A stretch of DNA of 49,802 nt, taken from positions 1 to 49,802 of the forward strand of contig JAJRSM010000106.1 of the NCBI GenBank assembly GCA_024278765.1, in the 5' to 3' direction. The stretch is from Deltaproteobacteria bacterium. GTDB lineage: Bacteria; Desulfobacterota; GWC2-55-46; DRQE01. The notes beneath the pieces are model-generated. The model saw nothing but the letters and a program-made list of their open reading frames with translations, did not search any database and was not told where the DNA came from. A program made the position numbers and the translations under genes. Of this stretch, positions 171-13,580 are shown one piece after another; position 1 is the stretch's first letter; every line of letters begins with the position of its first letter.

Positions 171-3100
171 CTACCCCTGCCACTCTATCCAACCATCTAT
201 CGCAGGATAATAAAGGGCCTTTCTTATCTCGCGTTGCTCGCCTGAGGCACGTAGCACATGTTCGTAACGATCAAGCTGCGGCGCATACCGCTGCTTCTCT
301 TCTGCTAAAAAGTCGTCAAGGCTGCCGCCCTCATGGCTACCTGTCTTATAATCTACTATCCAGCGAATACCTTTATCATCGACAAAGCTCCTGTCTATCA
401 CCGTACGTACGACCACGCCGTCTATCACAGTGGTTATCGCCATCTCGGCAGCATCGTTTTTATGTGCTGCAAGGACCCAACGTCCTCGCTCGGTAGCCAG
501 AGCCTTATCTATTATCTGCATGCCTTTTTTGGCGATAAGAACGGCCTCGGCTTTATCAAAGCCCATCTCTCGCAGCATCACCTGCATATGGCTATCTTCT
601 CTGGCCAACCGACCCTTATCCCAGGCAAGAAGACCGTCCGTTACAATCCTGCAAAAGTATCTGTGAATGACCGTCCCCAGGTGACGCGCCTCCTCTCCGA
701 CCCAATCAAAGCTCGGCCTTACCGGCCCGTTCTGCTGCTGGTCTTTAGATACGCCGGTCCTTATCGAGGCCGCTGGCTCGGGACGCTGCCAGCCAGCCGG
801 AAGTCTTTTCAGAGAAAGTCCTCGTACCGGGGTTTCTCCCTCCGCGTCATGCCGCTGACTCGACTCTGAGATCTCAATGATATTATCTTTATAGATCTCA
901 GAACCTATAAGAGACAAAAAAGACCCGGAGCTTGCCTGCTCTTCGCCGTCAACTCCGGCGATATTACCAAAGATATAAAGCCCCTGGCGAGCCCTTGTCG
1001 TGGCGACATAAAAAAGCCTTAGTTCTTCATATTTATCTTTTATATTATTTATCTCAGTTATTGCATTGTAGATCAGCCCGCCCGTACCTCTCTCGGATAC
1101 CTCCTCGATTGGTGCGAGCAGTAGATCACGGCCACGCTCAAGCCACTGCATAATCTTACGCTCGCTCCGACCACTCCTCTTGCCAAGCCCCGGTAGGATT
1201 ACATAATCAAACTCAAGCCCCTTTGCCTTGTGTATCGTCATAAGGACTACCGGGTTTATGCCCTCGCCAGTGCTCGAAGCAAAGAGCTTTTTCATTCGCT
1301 GGACGAACCACTTTAACTGCGAGACGTCTTTAACTCTTGCATCAGTCAAAAGATCAAAAAAGGTCTCTGCGTCCTTCATATCGTCTTCACCTGTAAAGGT
1401 CGCTGGCCCGCCAAGCTCTATCCAAAGCCCTTCAAGCAAAGCCCTCATAGGAATACGGCCTCGCAGTGCCATTGCCTTTGCCATCTTATCCCTGAATATA
1501 AATACACGGCTCTGTCCGTCCTCTGATAACGCTGCGATACGCTCGTCATCACTAAAAATACTCCACAGGATTCTTTTCTGATCAAAGCCCACAAGACTAT
1601 GAATGTCACACAAGGCCAAGCCGCAGTAACGAGCCCTTAGCAGAGCCAGCCACGCGACCCTATCGCCCGGGTGCAGGAGCGCACGCAAGAGCGCCATCAG
1701 TTCCTGAACCACGATCTTACCATCTAAAGGCTCCAGTTGCTCACCCCTATAATCTATACTAGCAGCCTTTAACGCCTCTATAATCTTATCCAGATGCGCA
1801 CGCGACCTGACAAGGATAACCTTACTGGCGTCTGCTGGGAACCCCTTTAAAACCCCTACTATATCCTCTGCCTCTCTCTTATCGTCACGCCCACTATAGG
1901 TCGTAACCTCAACACCCGCACTGCTCTCGGCCTCTCTGACACCGCAGGACTCCGAGTACCTGACGGCCCCGATTGCAGGGTCTTCAACCAGCGGAAAGGC
2001 CTCGCTAAAGACCCGATTTACCCAGTCCACAAGGGCTGGACGTGACCTGAAGTTAGCCGTAAGGTTAAGTGCTGTCAGCTCGATATCGGCCATACCGCTT
2101 TGTCTGGCCTCTAGAAATATTCCAACATCCGCGTCTCTAAACCTATAGATAGATTGCATCGGATCGCCAACAATAAAAAGCGTTCGTCCGTCGCCATGCT
2201 CAAAGCCGCGTGTTAACGAGCACATAAGAGTAGCCTGCGTCCAGGAGGTGTCCTGATATTCGTCTACTAGGATATGGCGAAACCTGTTGTCAAAGGCCAG
2301 CATCAGATCGGTTGGATCATCATCTGAGCCAAGGGCCGTTATCGCAGCCATCGAGACCATTGAAAAATCAACGGTCTCTCGCTCAACAAAAACTTCTTTG
2401 AGTTTTTTTACAGCTACCGGCAAGGTCCTGACAAGCGCACTTAAGACCTGCCATTCTTCATCACTATAAGTCGCCACTGGCAATCTGCCAACTGCGCTCA
2501 TGGTCTCGGCGATACTATCAAGGCCGTCGAGTTCTTCAAGTAACCCTTTAAAGGCCAGCTTACTAAGCTCAGCCTCACTGCCTTTCTTAGCAGGAGGGAA
2601 GCCGATCTTCTTATTCACACCACCGGGCTTTCTCCACTGCCCCTTGGCCGTCAGCAATAACTTTGCCAGCCCCTTCCATAGAGCAAGGGCTTTTGCCTTT
2701 GCAGCAGGCATCTCTTCAGTCTCACCAAGGCCGCTAATAGTCTTCTCTAAAGGATCTATCTCACGCAACACCCGTGCCGCATACCGTGCGGAATCCAGCA
2801 AGGATGCCACGAGATCATCAGGGAAGGTCTCGACTGCCCGCTGCAGTCTTTCTTCGATTAGATTTTTTATCCCCGCTTCCAGACGAATACGCAAGACGCT
2901 ATCATCTGCGTCTCCGTCCAAGTGACGCAGCCACTGATCCCGCCCCCTTAGCATTTCAACAAGTTTACAGGTCATAGTGCCAACAGAGTTATCCATATGG
3001 CAGAGAACCTGCCTGAGCGCGTCTCCGTCACGACCGTCTTTATCTATCAGCGCAATAGTACGCCTTGCGGCCTCTTCATATAACTCGTCAGGGCTATCGC

Positions 3101-3536
3101 TTACAGAGAGCTGCCTACCAAGCCCGGATAAGAGCGGCATCTGACGCACAATTGTGGCGCAGAAAGAATCAATTGTAAGTACCTTTAGCCTTGAGGTATT
3201 CAAGAGTAGATTCCAGCCTTCTGCCTTATCACGAAGGAGGACTTTGCCGGCAAGCTCCAGCGTCTTGGATTGGCCCGAGTCCTTACCCTTTTTTCCGCAT
3301 TGTGCCATCTCCATTGCCTCGACGATACGCGCCCGCATCTCTCCTGCGGCCTTACGCGTAAAGGTTATGGCAAGGACCTCTTCCGGTCTATCTACTGTAG
3401 CCAGCAAGACAAGAAAACGCTGAATCAAGAGCGTCGTCTTACCAGAGCCGGCAGGGGCCTGCACAATAAAAGATCCACCGGGGTCGATGGCAAGATCGCG
3501 CTCTTTCTGATCAGGGATATTGAGGGGATCAACCAT
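171..3536 (-). CDS. addA: AddA/RecB-like UvrD-family helicase-nuclease
   Basis: Large subunit of an ATP-dependent helicase/exonuclease that processes double-strand breaks for RecA-dependent repair. Superfamily 1 motifs appear in order: Walker A (APAGSGKTT, near residues 27-35), motif II (VDEYQDTS), motif III (GDPMQSIYRFRD), motif V (TIHKAKGLEFD) and motif VI (YVATTRARQGL). The C-terminus carries a RecB-type PD-(D/E)XK nuclease: a GTVIHRY histidine, an IDRSF aspartate, DYKTG, and a Q-x-x-x-Y motif. The ATG at 3534-3536 is chosen because GGAGGT stands 8 bases ahead of it; a TTG-type extension to 3557 would lack a ribosome site. The start overlaps the stop of the AddB-like gene by 8 bp, suggesting translational coupling. 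AddA rather than RecB is favoured by the AddB-like partner and the absence of recC and recD. Confidence 0.9.
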   Translation of the reverse strand: MVDPLNIPDQKERDLAIDPGGSFIVQAPAGSGKTTLLIQRFLVLLATVDRPEEVLAITFTRKAAGEMRARIVEAMEMAQCGKKGKDSGQSKTLELAGKVLLRDKAEGWNLLLNTSRLKVLTIDSFCATIVRQMPLLSGLGRQLSVSDSPDELYEEAARRTIALIDKDGRDGDALRQVLCHMDNSVGTMTCKLVEMLRGRDQWLRHLDGDADDSVLRIRLEAGIKNLIEERLQRAVETFPDDLVASLLDSARYAARVLREIDPLEKTISGLGETEEMPAAKAKALALWKGLAKLLLTAKGQWRKPGGVNKKIGFPPAKKGSEAELSKLAFKGLLEELDGLDSIAETMSAVGRLPVATYSDEEWQVLSALVRTLPVAVKKLKEVFVERETVDFSMVSMAAITALGSDDDPTDLMLAFDNRFRHILVDEYQDTSWTQATLMCSLTRGFEHGDGRTLFIVGDPMQSIYRFRDADVGIFLEARQSGMADIELTALNLTANFRSRPALVDWVNRVFSEAFPLVEDPAIGAVRYSESCGVREAESSAGVEVTTYSGRDDKREAEDIVGVLKGFPADASKVILVRSRAHLDKIIEALKAASIDYRGEQLEPLDGKIVVQELMALLRALLHPGDRVAWLALLRARYCGLALCDIHSLVGFDQKRILWSIFSDDERIAALSEDGQSRVFIFRDKMAKAMALRGRIPMRALLEGLWIELGGPATFTGEDDMKDAETFFDLLTDARVKDVSQLKWFVQRMKKLFASSTGEGINPVVLMTIHKAKGLEFDYVILPGLGKRSGRSERKIMQWLERGRDLLLAPIEEVSERGTGGLIYNAITEINNIKDKYEELRLFYVATTRARQGLYIFGNIAGVDGEEQASSGSFLSLIGSEIYKDNIIEISESSQRHDAEGETPVRGLSLKRLPAGWQRPEPAASIRTGVSKDQQQNGPVRPSFDWVGEEARHLGTVIHRYFCRIVTDGLLAWDKGRLAREDSHMQVMLREMGFDKAEAVLIAKKGMQIIDKALATERGRWVLAAHKNDAAEMAITTVIDGVVVRTVIDRSFVDDKGIRWIVDYKTGSHEGGSLDDFLAEEKQRYAPQLDRYEHVLRASGEQREIRKALYYPAIDGWIEWQG

Positions 3537-6417
3537 ACTCAGCCACCTCCGATTCATCAGGGCTTTCGCTATCTAACTCAAAGATCCTGCACAAGATCGG
3601 CAGCTCGCAGTAGAGGCATGCAGTTGGTTTACCTCTAGCGTCTCTGGTCGGAGAAACATTACAAATACCTGCGACAAAATCTTCGGCGAGCCGGCTGAGT
3701 GTTTGCCTCCACATCTCCCTCAGGTCGTCCCAATCCTCAACCCCTTCTATCTGTTCACGCCACCGAGTTTCTTTATCCAGAGATTTTACATTCGGCAAGA
3801 TACCGTCGTCTTTAGAAAGACCTATAAATTTTGTCCCCGGCAGTTTAAGGCTTGCAAAGGCAATCGCATCAAACTCGGTGCCAATGCCGTACAAGAGCAT
3901 CTGCGGCTCTACCATCTTATCAGGCAGCCATGCGTTTTTTGTACAGTTCCCTGTCTTATAATCTATAACAACCCTAGCCCCGTTCTCTAATTCATCAAGA
4001 CGGTCAGGGCGGGCAACAATACTCAGCCCGCCAATCGTTACCTTCTCGTCAAACTCGGTCTGAACGACCGTAAAGGGAGACCTCTTAAGCTCTACCTCCA
4101 GCCACTGCCGTACCAGAGCCACGACCCTCTCGCCCTCCATATCAAGGAATCGCCGGGGCAGCCGCCTTGCGTAATAACCACGCAGGGCTTGAGTAACGGC
4201 CTGCTCGACCATCGCCTCCAGCTCTCCGCTACCCTTAAGGGCTCGCAGTCTTTCTGAATCCTTTACCTCTTTCCAGAAAAACTCCAGAGCCTGATGCACA
4301 AGATTGCCACGCTCCGCTCCGTCTAGTCCGTCCTCTGGCTGGACCACGCCGCTAGCCCCGAGCCTGTGTTTTGCAAAGGCCCGGAAAGGACACTCACTCT
4401 GATCTTTTATAATAGAAGTCCCACCCCTGAGTGCTGCCGCACCCAGATTAGAAAGACCAATATCCCCGTCCTTTGCCATATCTTCCAGCGCACAGGCCTT
4501 GTGTACGGCGGCCTTGAGCGTAGAGCCGCTACCAAGCAATGCTGCCACCTGACCTACACTGTCTTTATCTTCATGTTTTTGCGCTTCCTTCTCAACCCAG
4601 TTTAATAGAGGGCTCAGCCCTACCTCTTTACCTCTAATATCCATTGGATAACTCACTACAAAGCTACCGGCACTCTGAAAGATCCTCTTAAGAGAGCCGG
4701 TAGCAAAGCCAAGCATCTTCTCCGGCGTTGCCCGCGGCATACCGAAACGCCGCTGCAACTCGATTGGAATAAAAGGATTTGGCGAGGCCGGTCCTGGCAA
4801 GACGCCATCATACGCGCCCATCAACCAGATATAATCGAAGTCCTGCCCGCTTGCCTCAAGCATCCCAAGGACCTCTACGCTTACGTCACCAACCGAATCA
4901 GCTACTACACTCTCGACCTGAAATATCTTCTCTGCTGCCATAGCCCTTAACCAGGATGTTGCTGCGCGTCTGGAGATTGCACCGAGGATATCGCCAAGGC
5001 CCGCAAACTCTGCCAGCAACCCCTTCCACGATTCCAGACACTGGTACTCACGACTGGTCAGTCCGGTTTTTGCAGGTGAATTAGCACGAGCCGACCAACC
5101 CCCGAAAAAACCAATCTTCGCTAGCAGAGAAGAAAACCTCTCGGCCCAGGCACTTGGCAGAGCAGAGGTCTTTGCTTTATCCAGATCCTCTATCCACAGA
5201 TCAATACGGCTCGTAAAGGCCCTAAGCGACTCACCTCTACCAGAAGCCATCCCTCTAATATCACGCAGCCCGACCGTTAAATATTTTTTGCGTTTCAGGT
5301 CGGCATCGATTGCCGCAAGCTCGAGTCCCTCCTGCCAAGTCTCGCAGATATAAGGCGACAAAAGCATGCCGCTCATCTTAGTTATATCCTCCGGCCAAAG
5401 CACTATAGTAAGGATATCAAGCAATGCACTTATTATTGGTTCTGTGCTTAACGCGGCCCCGAGCGAAAGGTTAAAGACATCGGTGGATTCTTTCCACGGA
5501 AGGACCGAGACGGGTGAAAGCTCCGCGCCAAATTCACGCAGAATAATATCCCGGTATTCGCCAAGCTCCGGCACTATAACGCCGATTCTCATTCCCCCGC
5601 CCCCAATCAGCTGTTTTTCGCTAGAAGCCAAGACCTCGCGTATCCAGAGGGCTGCGCCCTTTACCTCCTGCACAGGCCCCTTAAAACTGCGCAGTTCAGT
5701 CTGCCCCCCAATACCGGCTGGCCCAACAGACAAAAGACCCTCGTCGCCTGTAACGCTCGGCTCAGAGGGCCAGCTAGCAAGCACCAAACCGGCCCTTTCC
5801 AGTATCTGCATAAAGGCCGCACGCTGCGGCGTTATCTCGTCAAAACCTGCAAAGACAACCTTATCAGGTAATACCAGATCGCCACCTGTTACGGCTTCTC
5901 CGGCGATCCTTATAAGCTCACTAAAGTCAATAAAACCCAGCTGTTTTAAGGCCTTCTCATAACTGCGACTCCATCTTTTAAAGGCCAATGCCTCTTTGCC
6001 AAGATATATCTCTTCACCAAGCCCCTGCAAGCAATACTCCTTCATAAGGGCATAGGCGCTGGATGCCGCCTGCCACGCGCCGCCTGCGACCAAAAGATCA
6101 CTCGCCTCTAACTGGTGATCCTCCTCTATAATCTTCTTCCAGAGCGCAACCGCACGCGCCTCTGTAATCAGAGCAGGCCTGCCAGCCTGCCAGCTTTCCT
6201 GCAACAGACTCCTTGCCCACGAGCCAAGCGGCATCACCACAGGAGTCGTCCAGGAGACGCACCCACGAGCGACCATCGCCGTCTCGAAAGACGCAGACAG
6301 ATAGCGTGCAAGCCGTTTATTGACCGTCACCACTACAGCTCCGCCCTCTATCGCCTTTATTATTTCTTCCAGTTTAGTCACAAAATAAATATTAACATTT
6401 TGCAGATCAAGAGGCAA
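3529..6417 (-). CDS. AddB-like PD-(D/E)XK nuclease (probable DNA repair protein)
   Basis: About 960 residues, resembling the 'probable DNA repair protein' group (AddB/RecC-like) that is normally encoded next to a UvrD/AddA helicase. The N-terminus (TVNKRLARYL) takes the place of an ATPase and shows no Walker A motif, as expected for an inactivated helicase fold. The C-terminal nuclease has GNLVHQALEFF, then ARPDRLDEL followed by VVIDYKTGN and QMLLYG. Cysteines flank the nuclease as in AddB iron-sulfur proteins: one in SECPFRAF before it and C-x2-C-x5-C (CLYCELPILC) after it, so a 4Fe-4S staple is likely. The start is uncertain: a TTG at 6417 gives the full frame, a GTG at 6381 is an alternative, and neither has a clear ribosome site. 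It overlaps addA by 8 bp. Confidence 0.85.
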   Translation of the reverse strand: MPLDLQNVNIYFVTKLEEIIKAIEGGAVVVTVNKRLARYLSASFETAMVARGCVSWTTPVVMPLGSWARSLLQESWQAGRPALITEARAVALWKKIIEEDHQLEASDLLVAGGAWQAASSAYALMKEYCLQGLGEEIYLGKEALAFKRWSRSYEKALKQLGFIDFSELIRIAGEAVTGGDLVLPDKVVFAGFDEITPQRAAFMQILERAGLVLASWPSEPSVTGDEGLLSVGPAGIGGQTELRSFKGPVQEVKGAALWIREVLASSEKQLIGGGGMRIGVIVPELGEYRDIILREFGAELSPVSVLPWKESTDVFNLSLGAALSTEPIISALLDILTIVLWPEDITKMSGMLLSPYICETWQEGLELAAIDADLKRKKYLTVGLRDIRGMASGRGESLRAFTSRIDLWIEDLDKAKTSALPSAWAERFSSLLAKIGFFGGWSARANSPAKTGLTSREYQCLESWKGLLAEFAGLGDILGAISRRAATSWLRAMAAEKIFQVESVVADSVGDVSVEVLGMLEASGQDFDYIWLMGAYDGVLPGPASPNPFIPIELQRRFGMPRATPEKMLGFATGSLKRIFQSAGSFVVSYPMDIRGKEVGLSPLLNWVEKEAQKHEDKDSVGQVAALLGSGSTLKAAVHKACALEDMAKDGDIGLSNLGAAALRGGTSIIKDQSECPFRAFAKHRLGASGVVQPEDGLDGAERGNLVHQALEFFWKEVKDSERLRALKGSGELEAMVEQAVTQALRGYYARRLPRRFLDMEGERVVALVRQWLEVELKRSPFTVVQTEFDEKVTIGGLSIVARPDRLDELENGARVVIDYKTGNCTKNAWLPDKMVEPQMLLYGIGTEFDAIAFASLKLPGTKFIGLSKDDGILPNVKSLDKETRWREQIEGVEDWDDLREMWRQTLSRLAEDFVAGICNVSPTRDARGKPTACLYCELPILCRIFELDSESPDESEVAEYG
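3545..3550 (-). promoter_or_regulatory. Shine-Dalgarno deciding the addA start
   Basis: GGAGGT on the minus strand, 8 bases before the ATG at 3536 and inside the end of the AddB-like gene. It supports the shorter start over the longer open frame beginning at 3557. Confidence 0.7.
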
Positions 6418-6514: not shown

Positions 6515-7549
6515 ATGAAAAACAACTATAAGCCTACTAAAAAGACTACCTTAGCTGCGTTACCGCTTTTCATCCTCTTCATTACCGCTATATTACTACT
6601 GCCGGGAAGCAGCTACGCCGAAGAAGAAAAAGGATGGCTCAGCTGGGCCAAAGACCTTGCCACCTCTGCTGAGAAAGAAGATGTAGATGATCGTCATTCT
6701 TATATAACTATCGATGAGAAAAAGCGCAAATACTATCTGCACCTGCCAAAGCGTCGCAGCGGTAGCGATCCTATATCACTGATAATTGCCTTCCACTCAG
6801 GTCACGGCGGCGGCATCAGGCTGGCTGAACAGAGCGGCTTTGATGAGTTGGCCGACAAAGAAGGCTTTGCGGTTGTTTATCCTGATTCTGTAGTACAGTG
6901 GAACGACGGAAGGGCAAAGGCCTCGAGTATGAGAGATATAAAACTTACAAAGGCCCTTATCAAAAAACTCATAACTGAAAACAATATTGATCCAAAGCGC
7001 ATCTATGCCACAGGCATCCTTAACGGCGGACTCTTTACGCTGCGCCTAGCCTGCGATATGGCAGATACCTTCGCTGGTTTTGCGCCTTTGCTGGCCTCGA
7101 TACCCGAGGACTACGTTGAGTCATGCCGACCATCTAAGAAGTTTCCAATCATAATGATGAGTGCTACCAAGAATAAGATGGTTCCGTGGCAGGGAGGTAG
7201 CGTACCATTTGGAAGCAGCTTTACCCACGGCGGCAATGTTATCTCAATAGATAAAACCATCCAGTTCTGGCAAGAGCACAACGACTGCTCTGCCGCTGCC
7301 TACACCGAGGCACTTCCTGACAGGGACAAATCAGACGGTACGCGCGTTGAACTGGCCCGCTACAAAAACTGCTCCAAGGGCTCGGCCCTGACCCATATAA
7401 CGATAAAGAACGGCGGCAGCACATGGCCCGGATCAAAAGAAAAACCCGGACGAATGAGAACCACGATGATAGGACTTACAAGCTATGATATCGACGCAGC
7501 AGAGATGATCTGGGAGTTCTTTAAAGAGCACTCTATAACACAAAAATAA
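6515..7549 (+). CDS. Secreted PHB-depolymerase/esterase-family protein lacking the catalytic triad
   Basis: A 344-residue alpha/beta-hydrolase homologue of the LpqC/PHB depolymerase-feruloyl esterase family (COG3509-like). Residues 1-35 form a signal peptide ending SYA, so it is exported. The family landmarks are present, but every catalytic position is changed. The nucleophile elbow G-x-S-N-G-G reads GILNGG (Leu169, codon 7019-7021). The acid position ahead of VPW is Asn220 (SATKNKMVPW) rather than Asp. The usual GGHTWPG histidine is Ser302 (GGSTWPG). Seen in the sequence: an intact frame without stops. Inferred: a pseudoenzyme, perhaps binding a polymer or partner. The ATG at 6515 is preferred because it places the signal peptide first; a TTG extension to 6449 is possible. 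It is divergent from the AddB-like gene and is followed after 44 bp by a small Cys-rich gene. Confidence 0.82.
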   Translation: MKNNYKPTKKTTLAALPLFILFITAILLLPGSSYAEEEKGWLSWAKDLATSAEKEDVDDRHSYITIDEKKRKYYLHLPKRRSGSDPISLIIAFHSGHGGGIRLAEQSGFDELADKEGFAVVYPDSVVQWNDGRAKASSMRDIKLTKALIKKLITENNIDPKRIYATGILNGGLFTLRLACDMADTFAGFAPLLASIPEDYVESCRPSKKFPIIMMSATKNKMVPWQGGSVPFGSSFTHGGNVISIDKTIQFWQEHNDCSAAAYTEALPDRDKSDGTRVELARYKNCSKGSALTHITIKNGGSTWPGSKEKPGRMRTTMIGLTSYDIDAAEMIWEFFKEHSITQK

Positions 7550-7593: not shown

Positions 7594-7893
7594 TTGGCCA
7601 AAAAATGCTTTTCATATACTAAAATCTTAGTGCCTTCCGGCAAGCCCGGCAAAGGCGATAGCTGCCCGTTCTGCTCAGCAGATCTAAAGGCCTGCCTGAA
7701 TTGCCGCTTCTTTGACGACTCATCATATAACGAATGCACTGAGCCGCAGGCAGAACGAGCCCTAGAGAAGGACCGCTCAAACTACTGTGAATACTTTGAG
7801 TTTACGGAGGATTCTGGAACGGATGTGACCGGGGTAGGTCAAACAAAAGAAGACCCTATGGAGAGACTAAAAGACCTCTTTAAAGACCCTTAA
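7594..7893 (+). CDS. Small cysteine-rich protein, probable zinc-binding
   Basis: A 99-residue hydrophilic protein with six cysteines: C24-x2-C27, C34-x2-C37, then C48 and C65, in a context (ACLNCRFFD … NECTEPQAE … NYCEYFEF) that recurs in small uncharacterised bacterial proteins. Two CxxC pairs suggest a zinc ribbon. There is no signal peptide or membrane segment, so it is probably cytoplasmic. The start is TTG at 7594, supported by GGAG six bases upstream; no ATG fits. It follows the hydrolase homologue by 44 bp on the same strand and may be cotranscribed with it. The function is not recognised. Confidence 0.7.
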   Translation: MAKKCFSYTKILVPSGKPGKGDSCPFCSADLKACLNCRFFDDSSYNECTEPQAERALEKDRSNYCEYFEFTEDSGTDVTGVGQTKEDPMERLKDLFKDP

Positions 7894-7942: not shown

Positions 7943-8470
7943 TTATTTACGAATCTCTTTGGGCACACCGCTGATTCTGCCACGCCTTCTAAGGTCATTC
8001 ATCTTTTTTTGATTTTTCAAAAGTCGCTCCTTTATAAGAGGAACCTCGACCTCGTAACGCCTAAAGGTCTCTATATTTTTCGGCTTGATGTGCTGGCCGA
8101 GACGACGGCCTCTCCTGAACATCAATATAAAATCTTCCTTCTGCTCAAGCTCTTTTTTTGCGCTATCGATTTTACTACGTAACTTGACAAAGGAAAGTCG
8201 CCACCACATAAGGGGATGGTCTCCATATACCTCAAGCTCGGAGCTTTCAGTTTTCATTCTCCTATTCTTGACAGCCCTGACCTTTAGAGCCTTTACCGGC
8301 TCGTCGGTCTCCATAGTCGAGATCTTCTCGCGATACTCAAACGGAACCTTCCCCATATCATCTGTTATATGCATAATACCTTCTTTATCTGTCCAGCGAT
8401 AGATATCAGCAAGGACAAAAGAAGGCAGCAATAAAAACAGAGAAATAACAATAAAAATATATCTTTTCAT
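7943..8470 (-). CDS. DUF4124-domain periplasmic protein
   Basis: About 175 residues. A signal peptide covers residues 1-21 (hydrophobic core FIVISLFLLL, cleavage after VLA). It is followed at once by a DUF4124 motif (IYRWTDKEG … HITDD), a small beta domain found at the N-terminus of many proteobacterial envelope proteins. The remainder is rich in Lys, Glu and Arg and probably helical or coiled (KIDSAKKELEQKEDF). The ATG at 8470 starts directly at the signal peptide; a TTG at 8488 in the same frame is less likely. The gene lies 24 bp downstream of comEC on the same strand, so it may be the last gene of that transcript. Its role is unknown. Confidence 0.75.
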   Translation of the reverse strand: MKRYIFIVISLFLLLPSFVLADIYRWTDKEGIMHITDDMGKVPFEYREKISTMETDEPVKALKVRAVKNRRMKTESSELEVYGDHPLMWWRLSFVKLRSKIDSAKKELEQKEDFILMFRRGRRLGQHIKPKNIETFRRYEVEVPLIKERLLKNQKKMNDLRRRGRISGVPKEIRK

Positions 8471-8494
8471 ACTATTGAGTATACCCAAGACTCG

Positions 8495-10957
8495 CTAATC
8501 CGTCAAATAGCTTCTTATCTGAAGCACTTCGCCGTCGGTTGTAACTATAACCGCACCAGCAAGATCTGTCCGAAAGATTTCAATCTCCCTGTCCTGATAT
8601 CTCTTAAGCGTCTCTTTATGCGGAAAGCCAAAGCTATTACCACGCCCAAGTGTCATAACGGCAACCTCTGGCGCGACAAGCTTAATAAATGCATCGGAGG
8701 ACGAATAGCGACTGCCATGATGAGGGACCTTCAAGATATCCGCACGCAACGAGCCACTGCTACTTTGCATCAATGCGTTCTCACCGGCCTCGGCAACATC
8801 ACCGGCAAAAAGTATGGCACGCCTGCCATAGCTTATTCTCATAACCAGCGATGAGTCATTTATATCAAGCCGCTTTAACTGCTCCGCCGAGCTCGGTGGA
8901 TTTAAGAACTCCAGACGCACTCCGTTTATTTCCTTTGCAGGGCTTGCCTGACCTAACTCGTGCACCTGTATCTTGTTTTTTTTCAATGTATTTGCAAGCT
9001 CATTCGAGAGTCGGCCAACCCCGCCCCACCAGAACTCTTCAATGCGGAAGTTCCGCGCGATAAACTCTAACCCCTTCATATGATCACGCTGCGGATGGGT
9101 CAAGACCAGATAATCTATCTTTTTTATTTTCTTCTTCCAGAGAAAAGGCGCGATTATATCTTTACCAGAATCAAAGTTAGCAGAGGCAAAGCCGCCACCA
9201 TCGATAAGCATTCGTTTTCTTTGCCCGCCTAGGCCTTCAGGGAACTCAACAAGCGTTGCGTCCCCCTGCCCGACACTTATAAAGGTCACCTCCATTACCG
9301 CGCCGTCGCTTCGCGTATATTCAACATAAACATAAAAAATCACCAAAGAGATAAGAGACAAGATCAGAAGTTTACAGGCACGCCTGCGTGTACGCCGCAA
9401 GACTAGTAGCGGCAGTGCAGCAAGCGCAAGGTAATACGCAACGACCTCTAAAAGACTAGGCGTTCTGACCCACGAAAAGGCCCAACCTGGCTGAGTAAAA
9501 AAAACCGCCAGCCAGACAAGTTGCCCGATCACAAGATCAGCAAGCTGCATAAGCCAGAGACTTATGGTACTGCTTATTGGATAGGCAATAACAGATAAAA
9601 GTCCGAGAGGAACTACGATGAAAGTGGCTATAGGGACGATTATAAGGTTTGCTATAAAACCTATAGCAGAGACGCGGTGAAAATAGAGAGCCATGATAGG
9701 GACGGTCGCAAGCGAGGCGGCAACCGTTACAAGCGTAAAGTCTTTAAAACGCAGCAGCAATCTACGCACCGGATACGGCCATGTATCTTTAACAAGTACT
9801 TTGCTACCGATCTGACGCGAGCAGGAGATAAAATAAATAATCACTAAAACAGCCGTAAAGGACAACTGAAAACCTACGTCCCAGAGCGAAGCCGGAGATA
9901 AGAGCAATACGACAAAGGCCGCCACCGCTAGTGTCGAGTAAAGATCGCGCACCCTGCATATGGCAACGGTTATCACATAAGCGCCGATCATAATTACCGC
10001 GCGCTGCGTTGAGAGCGAAAACCCGGATATAGTCCCGTAAAATAATACCGGCAGGAACGAAACCATCACGGCAGATCTTCTCACATCGATTGCCAGCATC
10101 AAGCGGTCGCTTCTTTTTAAGAGCCACAGAATTATCAGATATGAAATAAAGGCTACAAAACCGACATGCAACCCGGAGATCGCCAACAGATGGGCCGTCC
10201 CTGAACTTCTGAAGATCTCTTTCTTCTGCTCGGTTATCGTACCCTTCTCACCTATTGTAAGGGCCTTGAGTATCCCTGCGTGCTCAAGCTCGGCACCGTC
10301 TATAAAGGCCGCAATCGCGGCGCGGTACGTATCCATTACTCTTAAAAAACTCGCCTCGCCATCTTTTATCTTTACTATACGCCCGGCTCTCAGATAAGCC
10401 GTAGCTGAGATGCCCTTACCCCTTAGCCACCACTGGTAATCAAAGCCGCCCTCGTTGCCAAAGTTTTTTGCAAGTTTTAGACGCAAAAAACCCCTGACCA
10501 GATCTCCTCTTTTAAGCTCTCCTACGACCCCTTCGCGGTCTCTACTTGTTACCTGCACCCGCCCTGTTGCGACCTGCCAGCCACTTCCTGTGTCTACTCC
10601 CGTCAGATCTATAAAAAACCTAACACCACCTGCTCGCTCCTCCAATGCACCGCGAATCGTACCCTCCAGACGGATACTCGCCGGGCGCGATCCTTCTAGA
10701 TCGGTCTTGATTATATTCCTTATATTACCTGGTGAATCATAGAGGGTCAGGGTCGGCAGCAGATATAAAAGCCCCAACGAAAAAAATACAGGCAAAGCCA
10801 GTATGGTGCGCACCTTACCGCCTTTTATCGTAGCCGAGGTAAGCAGGGCGGTTGAGATCAGAAGTAAAACAATAACAATAGGATAATCAGGCTCAAGCAG
10901 ACGCGAGGTAATGAGACCAAGAATAAAGACAATAACTAAAGATACAAGTGGACGCAT
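8495..10957 (-). CDS. comEC: ComEC/Rec2 DNA-uptake channel with metallo-beta-lactamase domain
   Basis: An inner-membrane protein that carries single-stranded DNA into the cytoplasm during natural transformation. From the N-terminus there are paired membrane helices (RPLVSLVIVFILGL), a DUF4131-like domain, the Competence domain (LTIGEKGTITEQKKEIFRSS, then HLLAISGLHVGF), further helices, and a C-terminal metallo-beta-lactamase-like domain with a GQGDATL strand, HPQRDHMKG and a KVPHHGSRYSSS motif. At about 820 residues it is full length. The ATG at 10957 is chosen because homologues begin with M-R-x-L; the open frame extends by 16 codons to a TTG at 11005. It lies 60 bp downstream of uvrC. A ComEA-like protein at 33.1 kb could be its DNA-receptor partner. 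Confidence 0.9.
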   Translation of the reverse strand: MRPLVSLVIVFILGLITSRLLEPDYPIVIVLLLISTALLTSATIKGGKVRTILALPVFFSLGLLYLLPTLTLYDSPGNIRNIIKTDLEGSRPASIRLEGTIRGALEERAGGVRFFIDLTGVDTGSGWQVATGRVQVTSRDREGVVGELKRGDLVRGFLRLKLAKNFGNEGGFDYQWWLRGKGISATAYLRAGRIVKIKDGEASFLRVMDTYRAAIAAFIDGAELEHAGILKALTIGEKGTITEQKKEIFRSSGTAHLLAISGLHVGFVAFISYLIILWLLKRSDRLMLAIDVRRSAVMVSFLPVLFYGTISGFSLSTQRAVIMIGAYVITVAICRVRDLYSTLAVAAFVVLLLSPASLWDVGFQLSFTAVLVIIYFISCSRQIGSKVLVKDTWPYPVRRLLLRFKDFTLVTVAASLATVPIMALYFHRVSAIGFIANLIIVPIATFIVVPLGLLSVIAYPISSTISLWLMQLADLVIGQLVWLAVFFTQPGWAFSWVRTPSLLEVVAYYLALAALPLLVLRRTRRRACKLLILSLISLVIFYVYVEYTRSDGAVMEVTFISVGQGDATLVEFPEGLGGQRKRMLIDGGGFASANFDSGKDIIAPFLWKKKIKKIDYLVLTHPQRDHMKGLEFIARNFRIEEFWWGGVGRLSNELANTLKKNKIQVHELGQASPAKEINGVRLEFLNPPSSAEQLKRLDINDSSLVMRISYGRRAILFAGDVAEAGENALMQSSSGSLRADILKVPHHGSRYSSSDAFIKLVAPEVAVMTLGRGNSFGFPHKETLKRYQDREIEIFRTDLAGAVIVTTDGEVLQIRSYLTD

Positions 10958-11016
10958 AATCAAAGAGGCTGCCCGGGCTAAGGATGTTGAGGCAATCAAA
11001 CTCAATATATAAAAAA

Positions 11017-12897
11017 CTATTCTAACTTCTTTTTAATGGCCAGCGCAACCTTAGCGGTTATGCCGGGCAGGGCCTCAAGTTCGGTAAGGCTCGCCACTTT
11101 TATTCCGTCAATATCGCCAAAAACTTCAAAGAGTTGTCGGCGTCTTTCCCTGCCTATTCCCTCGATATCATCAAGGATGGACCTTATCGCGGCCTTTCCT
11201 CGCAGGCTTCTATGATAACTAATCGCAAAACGGTGAACCTCATCTCTTACAAAGCGCAGAAGAAGATCGCCCTTTGAGCCTTCTTTTAGAAATATCGGGT
11301 CTTTACGCCCGGGCCTGAAGACCCGTTCACCAACGCTCGGTTTTCCCCGGCCTGTCTCGTGCCTTTGGCCAGTCCCTTTTGAAACGGCCTTTTCCTTTGC
11401 AAGAGAGGCAAGCTCCACGCCGCGAAGCCCTAGCTCTGCCATAACCTTACAAGCAACACCTAGCTGGCCCTTACCGCCGTCGATAAGTATCAGATCCGGC
11501 AACTCTGCTTTATCTTTATACCTGCGAGTCAGCAACTCCTCCATCATGGCATAATCATCAGGACCCTCTGTACGCATCTTATACCTTCGGTACCGTTCCT
11601 TGCAAGACTTACCATTAACAAAACAGACCATAGCACCTACGGCTTCTGTACTTCCAAGATTTGATATATCAAAGGCCTCGATGACTCGTGGTAACGCGGA
11701 TAGTTTAAGCCTGCTCTCCAGAGCTATTATAGATGCGTCTTCTGCGAGACTCTCATTCTTACCAAGTGCCTCCCTTGCATTTGCAAGTGCCATCTCGACA
11801 AGACCTGGTTTCGCGCCACGCACCGGCCTTCTGACAATTACCTTGCGCCCTTTTCTCTCACTAAGCCAGCCCGCGATGACACCACTATCTGCTAAATGCT
11901 CAGAGATATAAATCTCCTTAGGGATAAAAGCCTCGGTCTTTCTATAGAACTGGCTCAGGAAAGAACTAAGGACCTCAGAGCCCTCCAGCCCGTTATCTAT
12001 AAAAATAAAATCGCGCGTACTGACGAGTCTACCGCCTCGTATAAAAAGTACTACTATGGCAAGGTTTCCCTCACCTTCTTTATCGCCAGCTGGCTCGCTA
12101 CGTTCCAGCCCGAAGATATCCTGATCTATACAGTCAAATGATACGACCTTCTGCTCTTCAAGGATATCTTCAATCGAGCGAATACGATCCCTGATGACTG
12201 CGGCGCGTTCATAGTTATGCAGGGCCGCTGCCGTTTGCATCTCTTTTTTCAGGCCTCGCAGGAGTTCTTTGTTTTTACCTTCCAGAAACATCACAGCACC
12301 ACGAACGAGCAGCGCATAATTCTCGGCATTCATCTCACCTGTTGCAGGGGCGGCGCATAACCCCATCTGATGGTCAAGGCACGGCCTTATGCGATTGCGA
12401 AATTCATGAGGAGAACAGACGCAGAGCGGAAAGAGCCTTCTGATAAACTTTACTATTGCGCGCACTTCTCTGGCCGATGCGTACGGGCCGAAGTAACGAG
12501 CACCATCGTCTCTTATACGACGCCCTACAAGGATGCGCGGAAACTCTTCCTGCATGGTTATCTTGATGCTGACGTAAGTTTTATCGTCTTTGAGTCGGAT
12601 ATTATAGCGGGGCTTATGTTTCTTAAGAAGGGTATCTTCCAGGATCAGGGCCTCTGTCTCGTTGGCCGTAACGATGACATCTATATCATCGACCTTTGAT
12701 GCCAGAAACCTGACGGCATATCGGGTATCTCCGCTTTTGCGAAAATACGACCGAACGCGAGAGCGCAGATTCTTGGCCTTACCGATATAAAGAATGGTGC
12801 GCCCTTGCTTCATCAAGTAGACGCCCGGGCCGGTTGGCAGACGCTTTATCTTTTCTTCTATCGGATTTTCAGAGTGGAGATCTGTCTTAGACTTCAT
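11017..12897 (-). CDS. uvrC: Excinuclease ABC subunit C
   Basis: The incision subunit of nucleotide excision repair, making cuts on both sides of a lesion in the UvrB-DNA complex. Domains in order are the GIY-YIG endonuclease (GVYLM … LYIGKAKNLRSR), a cysteine-containing region, a UVR motif that contacts UvrB (ALHNYERAAVIRDRI), the RNase H-like endonuclease (DISNLGS … LILIDGGKGQL … EVHRFAISYH) and C-terminal helix-hairpin-helix motifs (IEGIGRERRRQL; LEALPGITAKVA). The length of about 626 residues is normal. The ATG at 12897 fits homologue length better than a GTG at 12945. comEC follows 60 bp downstream. Confidence 0.95.
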   Translation of the reverse strand: MKSKTDLHSENPIEEKIKRLPTGPGVYLMKQGRTILYIGKAKNLRSRVRSYFRKSGDTRYAVRFLASKVDDIDVIVTANETEALILEDTLLKKHKPRYNIRLKDDKTYVSIKITMQEEFPRILVGRRIRDDGARYFGPYASAREVRAIVKFIRRLFPLCVCSPHEFRNRIRPCLDHQMGLCAAPATGEMNAENYALLVRGAVMFLEGKNKELLRGLKKEMQTAAALHNYERAAVIRDRIRSIEDILEEQKVVSFDCIDQDIFGLERSEPAGDKEGEGNLAIVVLFIRGGRLVSTRDFIFIDNGLEGSEVLSSFLSQFYRKTEAFIPKEIYISEHLADSGVIAGWLSERKGRKVIVRRPVRGAKPGLVEMALANAREALGKNESLAEDASIIALESRLKLSALPRVIEAFDISNLGSTEAVGAMVCFVNGKSCKERYRRYKMRTEGPDDYAMMEELLTRRYKDKAELPDLILIDGGKGQLGVACKVMAELGLRGVELASLAKEKAVSKGTGQRHETGRGKPSVGERVFRPGRKDPIFLKEGSKGDLLLRFVRDEVHRFAISYHRSLRGKAAIRSILDDIEGIGRERRRQLFEVFGDIDGIKVASLTELEALPGITAKVALAIKKKLE

Positions 12898-12960
12898 GAG
12901 TGTTATATCCAGAAGTGCGGAGTGCCGTCCATGAGAACAGGCCACCGTTTAAGAAAAAAC

Positions 12961-12996
12961 AGATTGCTTCGTCGCTTATACGCTCCTCGCAATGAC
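12961..12996. repeat. Short palindromic dispersed repeat (ATTGC…GCAAT type)
   Basis: The sequence starts AGATTGCTTCGTCGC and ends CTCCTCGCAATGAC, lying between the efp stop and the uvrC start. Hairpins of this kind (GTCATTGCGAGGAGC…GAAGCAATCT on the minus strand) are scattered through intergenic regions of many unrelated bacteria. Only one copy is present in this window. Confidence 0.55.
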
Positions 12997-13019
12997 AAAA
13001 TAAAAAAAGAAATTCAAAA

Positions 13020-13580
13020 CTACTTCGCACGCTCCAGATACTTACCCTCTGCGGTATCTATACGAACGACCTCGCCGGTCTCTACAAAAGGCGGCACATT
13101 TACCATAAGCCCGGTCTCTAGCTTTGCTGGCTTTGGCGATGCCGTTGCGGTTGCGCCTTTAAGATTCGGCGGAGTGTCAATAATCTTAAGTTCTACGACC
13201 TTTGGCGGAATAACGCCGATTGGGTTTTCTTTATAAAACTCTATTATAAACTTTATATTCTCAATAAGATAATAGACCGAATCGCCAAGCTTTTCACTTG
13301 AGAGCTCTATCTGCTCGTAGGTCTGAGAATTCATAAAATGATGCGTCTCGCCGTCGGAGTAAAGATAATTCATCTCTACCTTATCAAGCCTCGCCTTCTC
13401 CAGCTTCTCATCAGAACGGTAACGGTTCTCGGTAGCAATTCCTGTCTCAATGTTCCTAAGCCTCGTCTGAACGACTGCGTTGCCCTTACCCGGAGTTATA
13501 TGCTTACAGGTCATCACGGTATGCGGAGCACCGTTAAATAGTATCGTCATCCCTGCCCTTATCTGAGTTGCGTTTATCAT
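13020..13580 (-). CDS. efp: Translation elongation factor P
   Basis: Relieves ribosome stalling at polyproline stretches by binding near the P-site tRNA. The three-domain, 186-residue protein is full length. The tip loop reads HITPGKGNA, placing the modifiable lysine at residue 32, as in the lysine-type EF-Ps that are lysylated by EpmA/EpmB or act unmodified; those enzymes are not encoded here. The ATG at 13580 follows GAGGAGA about 10 bases upstream. It lies downstream of the aldolase gene and is separated from it by a strong terminator, so it has its own promoter, probably within 13581-13680. Confidence 0.95.
   Translation of the reverse strand: MINATQIRAGMTILFNGAPHTVMTCKHITPGKGNAVVQTRLRNIETGIATENRYRSDEKLEKARLDKVEMNYLYSDGETHHFMNSQTYEQIELSSEKLGDSVYYLIENIKFIIEFYKENPIGVIPPKVVELKIIDTPPNLKGATATASPKPAKLETGLMVNVPPFVETGEVVRIDTAEGKYLERAK

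Follow-up and report, generated by a model that had tools for sequence, protein, structure and literature searches.

The gene at positions 6515-7549 (+ strand) of the window, which is the whole stretch of 49,802 nucleotides analysed here and the start of a contig (C4) in the host draft genome, judging by length probably all of it, appears to encode an exported (periplasmic or secreted) pseudoenzyme. It would derive from a hydrolase resembling PHB depolymerases and acetyl xylan esterases and be kept as a non-hydrolytic binding protein, a reading to which we assign a probability of about 0.65. The nucleophile, the acid and the base of the catalytic triad and the glycine of the oxyanion hole are all replaced, which would preclude ester hydrolysis by the family mechanism. 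The folded domain may have been retained for binding an acylated ligand, a polymer or a partner protein, within or beside the former substrate cleft, which Leu169 and a lengthened loop after residue 302 could reshape. With the catalytic residues gone and the scaffold kept, the protein probably acts by binding and not by cleavage. Homology-based annotation routinely labels secreted esterases of this family as PHB depolymerases or feruloyl esterases, and would mislabel this protein as an enzyme.

Gene product and family assignment

The sequence-only reading had described an exported protein of an esterase family with an intact frame, and this description holds. The frame is open from ATG to TAA, comprises 344 residues and contains no internal stop. 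Its N-terminus, as read from the sequence, exhibits a hydrophobic stretch followed by SYA/EE, as in a typical signal peptide. The features of the gene are as follows.

6515-7549, + strand: putative exported pseudoenzyme of 344 aa, an alpha/beta hydrolase from the PHB-depolymerase/CE1-like family (homology, alignment, predicted structure)
6515-6619, + strand: predicted signal peptide spanning residues 1-35, with cleavage expected after SYA and no lipobox cysteine (sequence reading; helix 10-27 in the model)
6794-6799, + strand: oxyanion-hole motif H94-S95 (H-G in the family), Gly in 53 of 54 homologues
7013-7030, + strand: nucleophile elbow GILNGG; Leu169 replaces the Ser found in 54 of 54 homologues
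7169-7189, + strand: acid loop KNKMVPW; Asn220 replaces the Asp found in 54 of 54 homologues
7412-7432, + strand: base loop GGSTWPG; Ser302 replaces the His found in 53 of 54 homologues

The only family model that matches strongly is NCBIfam NF050058 (extracellular short-chain-length PHA depolymerase, catalytic domain type 1), which aligns residues 68-336 (269 residues) to model positions 5-276 with 124.8 bits (E 4.3e-36), below its curated cut-off of 150 bits. Three near relatives score 145.7, 156 and 160 bits, two of them above the cut-off. The match to Pfam Esterase_PHB also falls below the gathering threshold. The protein shares with the NF050058, LpqC and esterase_phb group homology over the full length, export, and the motifs WND-G, G-x-(S)-N-G-G and GG(H)TWPG. 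In contrast to that group, it has neither the Ser, Asp and His of the triad nor the oxyanion glycine.

The closest solved structure by sequence is 9j07 (acetyl xylan/feruloyl esterase), with an E-value of 3e-14. An AlphaFold2 model built from a six-row alignment reached a pTM of 0.76, with most of the domain above a pLDDT of 80; residues 310-319, in the loop behind the former His, are poorly determined. Aligned with VIA-align, the model superposes on 9j07, the acetyl xylan esterase B of Aspergillus oryzae (9j07/9j08), with a Z of 30.7 and an rmsd of 2.7 over 263 residues, and on LtPHBase (8daj; also 9byu) with a Z of 29.6, compared with about 20 for other alpha/beta hydrolases. Fold and motif order are alike in the three proteins; this common fold, seen here in a predicted model, says nothing about function. 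LtPHBase is an active hydrolase with the triad Ser121-His270-Asp197 (PMC11544428) and the Aspergillus protein is described as an esterase, whereas all three residues are missing here. Taken together, the sequence comparisons support a degenerate-active-site (pseudoenzyme-type) member of the PHB-depolymerase/acetyl-xylan-esterase family.

Catalytic site and retained scaffold

The replacement of nucleophile, acid and base had been proposed from the sequence and was checked by alignment with 54 homologues, drawn from 395 genomes of the same phylum, from GTDB contigs and from the groups of the closest matches outside the phylum. The alignment bears it out: the catalytic columns hold Leu169, Asn220 and Ser302 in this protein, and no real Ser, Asp or His stands at these positions. 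In a phmmer alignment, Leu169 likewise falls on the nucleophile motif of LtPHBase. The intact triad is also present in three further near relatives outside the alignment. A fourth catalytic loss, which the earlier reading had not mentioned, is the replacement of the oxyanion-hole glycine by Ser95. The loop after Ser302 is three residues longer than in the nearest relatives. The codons of Leu169, Asn220 and Ser302 are CTT, AAT and AGC; as these differ from any Ser, Asp and His codons by several nucleotide changes at three separate sites, a single base-calling error is no explanation. Among the homologues, the divergent, long-branched L027 exhibits a glutamine at the aligned His column (motif AQAFPG), which may stem from misalignment or mark a further altered active site.

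Twenty columns of the alignment are at least 95% conserved, and five of these are changed: the three of the triad, the oxyanion glycine, and F144L, which is conservative. The remaining 15 are retained, including R71, P78, H94, W129, D141, R162, G167, G171, P305 and W333. Random placement of five losses on the 20 columns would include the four catalytic ones with a probability of about 0.001. The protein also retains 38 of the 50 residues that are invariant across its ten nearest homologues, and its cysteines 180, 204, 258 and 286 stand in columns that hold Cys in 23, 26, 44 and 31 of the 54 homologues, respectively.

At the 80% conservation level, 16 of 48 columns are changed, more than in any of the homologues aligned. 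The 32 of 48 columns that are kept make up the lowest share among the 55 proteins, the next lowest being 37/48 and 37/47, which indicates that constraint is partly relaxed. Several of these changes (P88S, V90I, D140R, V142I and G217A) adjoin the catalytic motifs in the primary sequence, which suggests a general relaxation of constraint around the active site.

The closest relatives, which belong to genus g45 of another class of the phylum, are about 40% identical, possess an intact triad and share the motifs PDRDxxDGTRV and TSxDIDA with the protein; at this identity, synonymous sites are saturated. Relatives from Ignavibacteria and Calditrichota come next. The tree places the protein among these three groups on a branch of about 1.46 changes per site, with weak support for the fork (82/89). 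No orthologue was found in the other 62 of the 63 genomes of the class that were searched, and no paralogue was detected in the host genome. Orthologues with the Leu, Asn and Ser replacements were likewise not found in the 395 genomes of the phylum, the class of the nearest relatives, the phylum of homologue L036 or the class of homologue L037, nor in GTDB contigs, IMG/VR, plasmids or phages.

Decay, relocated catalysis or binding

The earlier suggestion that the losses reflect selection for a non-catalytic role rather than decay stands in part. The losses at catalytic positions, the kept scaffold and a neutral simulation disfavour decay of the whole gene, whereas the non-catalytic role itself is one that we infer. 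Neutral mutation up to 16 changed sites among the 48 conserved ones produced about 5.5 stops on average, with a probability of about 0.004 of producing none; this calculation assumes that all 16 changes are neutral, rejects only whole-gene decay since then and is silent on what is selected. When the simulation was stopped at 8 changed conserved sites, 7% of the runs were free of stops.

A young unitary pseudogene, in which relaxed selection led to the loss of catalysis and stops and frameshifts have yet to appear, is unlikely but deserves consideration. This singleton gene sits on a long branch, its product retains fewer of the well-conserved columns than any of the other proteins aligned, and its codon preference is weak. 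The host possesses neither a paralogue nor a PHA synthase, and the gene is missing from the corresponding interval of the family member G004, as far as the contig reaches, so it is dispensable in the family. However, the losses cluster on the catalytic columns, 15 of the 16 other columns that are at least 95% conserved are retained, some five stops would be expected under neutrality from the conserved changes and none is seen, and the signal peptide and cysteines are intact. With regard to codon usage, third-position GC lies in the range of the neighbouring genes, and all three codon positions lie within or near that range. Synonymous codon preference is weak but in range (rank 18 of 126 genes, with training genes from both strands), and the strand of the gene may explain this weakness. 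Codon usage was also compared for signs of decay or foreign origin and gave a result that depends on the training set: the gene looks atypical when training genes are taken from the minus strand only, but not when both strands are used. From the pattern of conserved positions, a retained pseudoenzyme, with losses on the catalytic machinery and the scaffold kept, fits better than whole-gene decay.

It is improbable that the protein is still an enzyme which uses different residues in the same cleft (e.g. Ser95, His97 or Ser302) for another reaction. The loop H94-S95-G96-H97 does bring a newly placed Ser and His next to the old active site, and moves of catalytic residues are possible in principle for a family of the alpha/beta-hydrolase fold. 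Nevertheless, a leucine occupies the nucleophile elbow, the defining feature of the chemistry of this fold, the triad columns offer no Ser, Asp/Glu and His in a working arrangement, and the oxyanion glycine is gone. An assembly or sequencing artefact (chimera or errors) is very improbable: the genome is a 2.2 Mb draft of 123 contigs and the case occurs once, but several substitutions at three distant sites have not broken the frame, the assembly has a completeness rating of 100% with 0.12% contamination, and the GC values of the three codon positions fall in or close to the range seen in neighbouring genes.

For a pseudoenzyme kept for binding, a precedent is MPT51 (FbpC1) of Mycobacterium tuberculosis, a member of the antigen-85 family. 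Scaffolding and interaction roles have also been noted for inactive homologues of alpha/beta hydrolases (PMC11878206). MPT51 is described as an alpha/beta hydrolase that is non-catalytic (Wilson et al. 2004, as cited by PMC6119806 and PMC8875947), and like the present protein it is exported. In contrast, PF00756 (Ag85/Esterase family), the Pfam family of antigen 85, is absent among the Pfam matches of the esterase-like protein up to an E-value of 1, which points to an independent loss. As MPT51 belongs to another esterase family, the comparison is an analogy and not a claim of membership. Our best guess is an exported, non-hydrolytic binding protein of the same general kind as MPT51 that arose in another family of esterases. 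The more specific proposal, that a protein of the PHB-depolymerase/acetyl-xylan-esterase family has turned into an exported binding protein (a receptor for an acyl polymer or a partner), independently of MPT51 and as the only triad-less member among 58 inspected, could equally be right or wrong in our estimation. Literature searches on pseudoenzymes in this family returned nothing directly on the subject. The singleton status limits the weight of the case. If functional, the protein would represent a second route, unrelated to MPT51, from an exported serine hydrolase to a binding protein, and a natural starting point for examining what the alpha/beta-hydrolase esterase fold binds without cutting.

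Genomic neighbourhood

The esterase-like gene sits between a divergent AddB-like gene and a small cysteine-rich gene, which is followed by genes for DUF4124, ComEC, UvrC and EF-P. The neighbouring features are as follows.

171-6417, - strand: two long genes similar to an AddAB-type helicase-nuclease pair, one for a UvrD helicase with PD-(D/E)XK nuclease, the other for a second PD-(D/E)XK protein
7594-7893, + strand: small cysteine-rich protein gene, 44 bp 3' of the esterase-like gene, in 33 of 63 class genomes
7943-13580, - strand: block DUF4124-ComEC-UvrC-EF-P, order conserved in the family genomes G001, G002 and G006, parts in others

The family member G004 exhibits the same order UvrC-ComEC-DUF4124-Cys-rich, and no esterase-like sequence was found in the 640 bases beyond its cysteine-rich gene to the end of the contig. 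The absence of the gene from this interval indicates that it is accessory in the block, having been either gained in the host lineage or lost in the others. A link to the host's own PHB storage was rejected, since no PHA synthase (PhaC) was found in the draft genome. A promoter scan gave no excess over chance. The cysteine-rich gene is possibly co-transcribed with the esterase-like gene and is conserved independently of it; as it occurs widely across the class in genomes that lack the esterase-like gene, it was ruled out as a specific operon partner. Its product has no Pfam match, exhibits the motif CPFCxxxLxxCLNCxFxD and is about 46-60% identical across the class, where its neighbourhoods vary.
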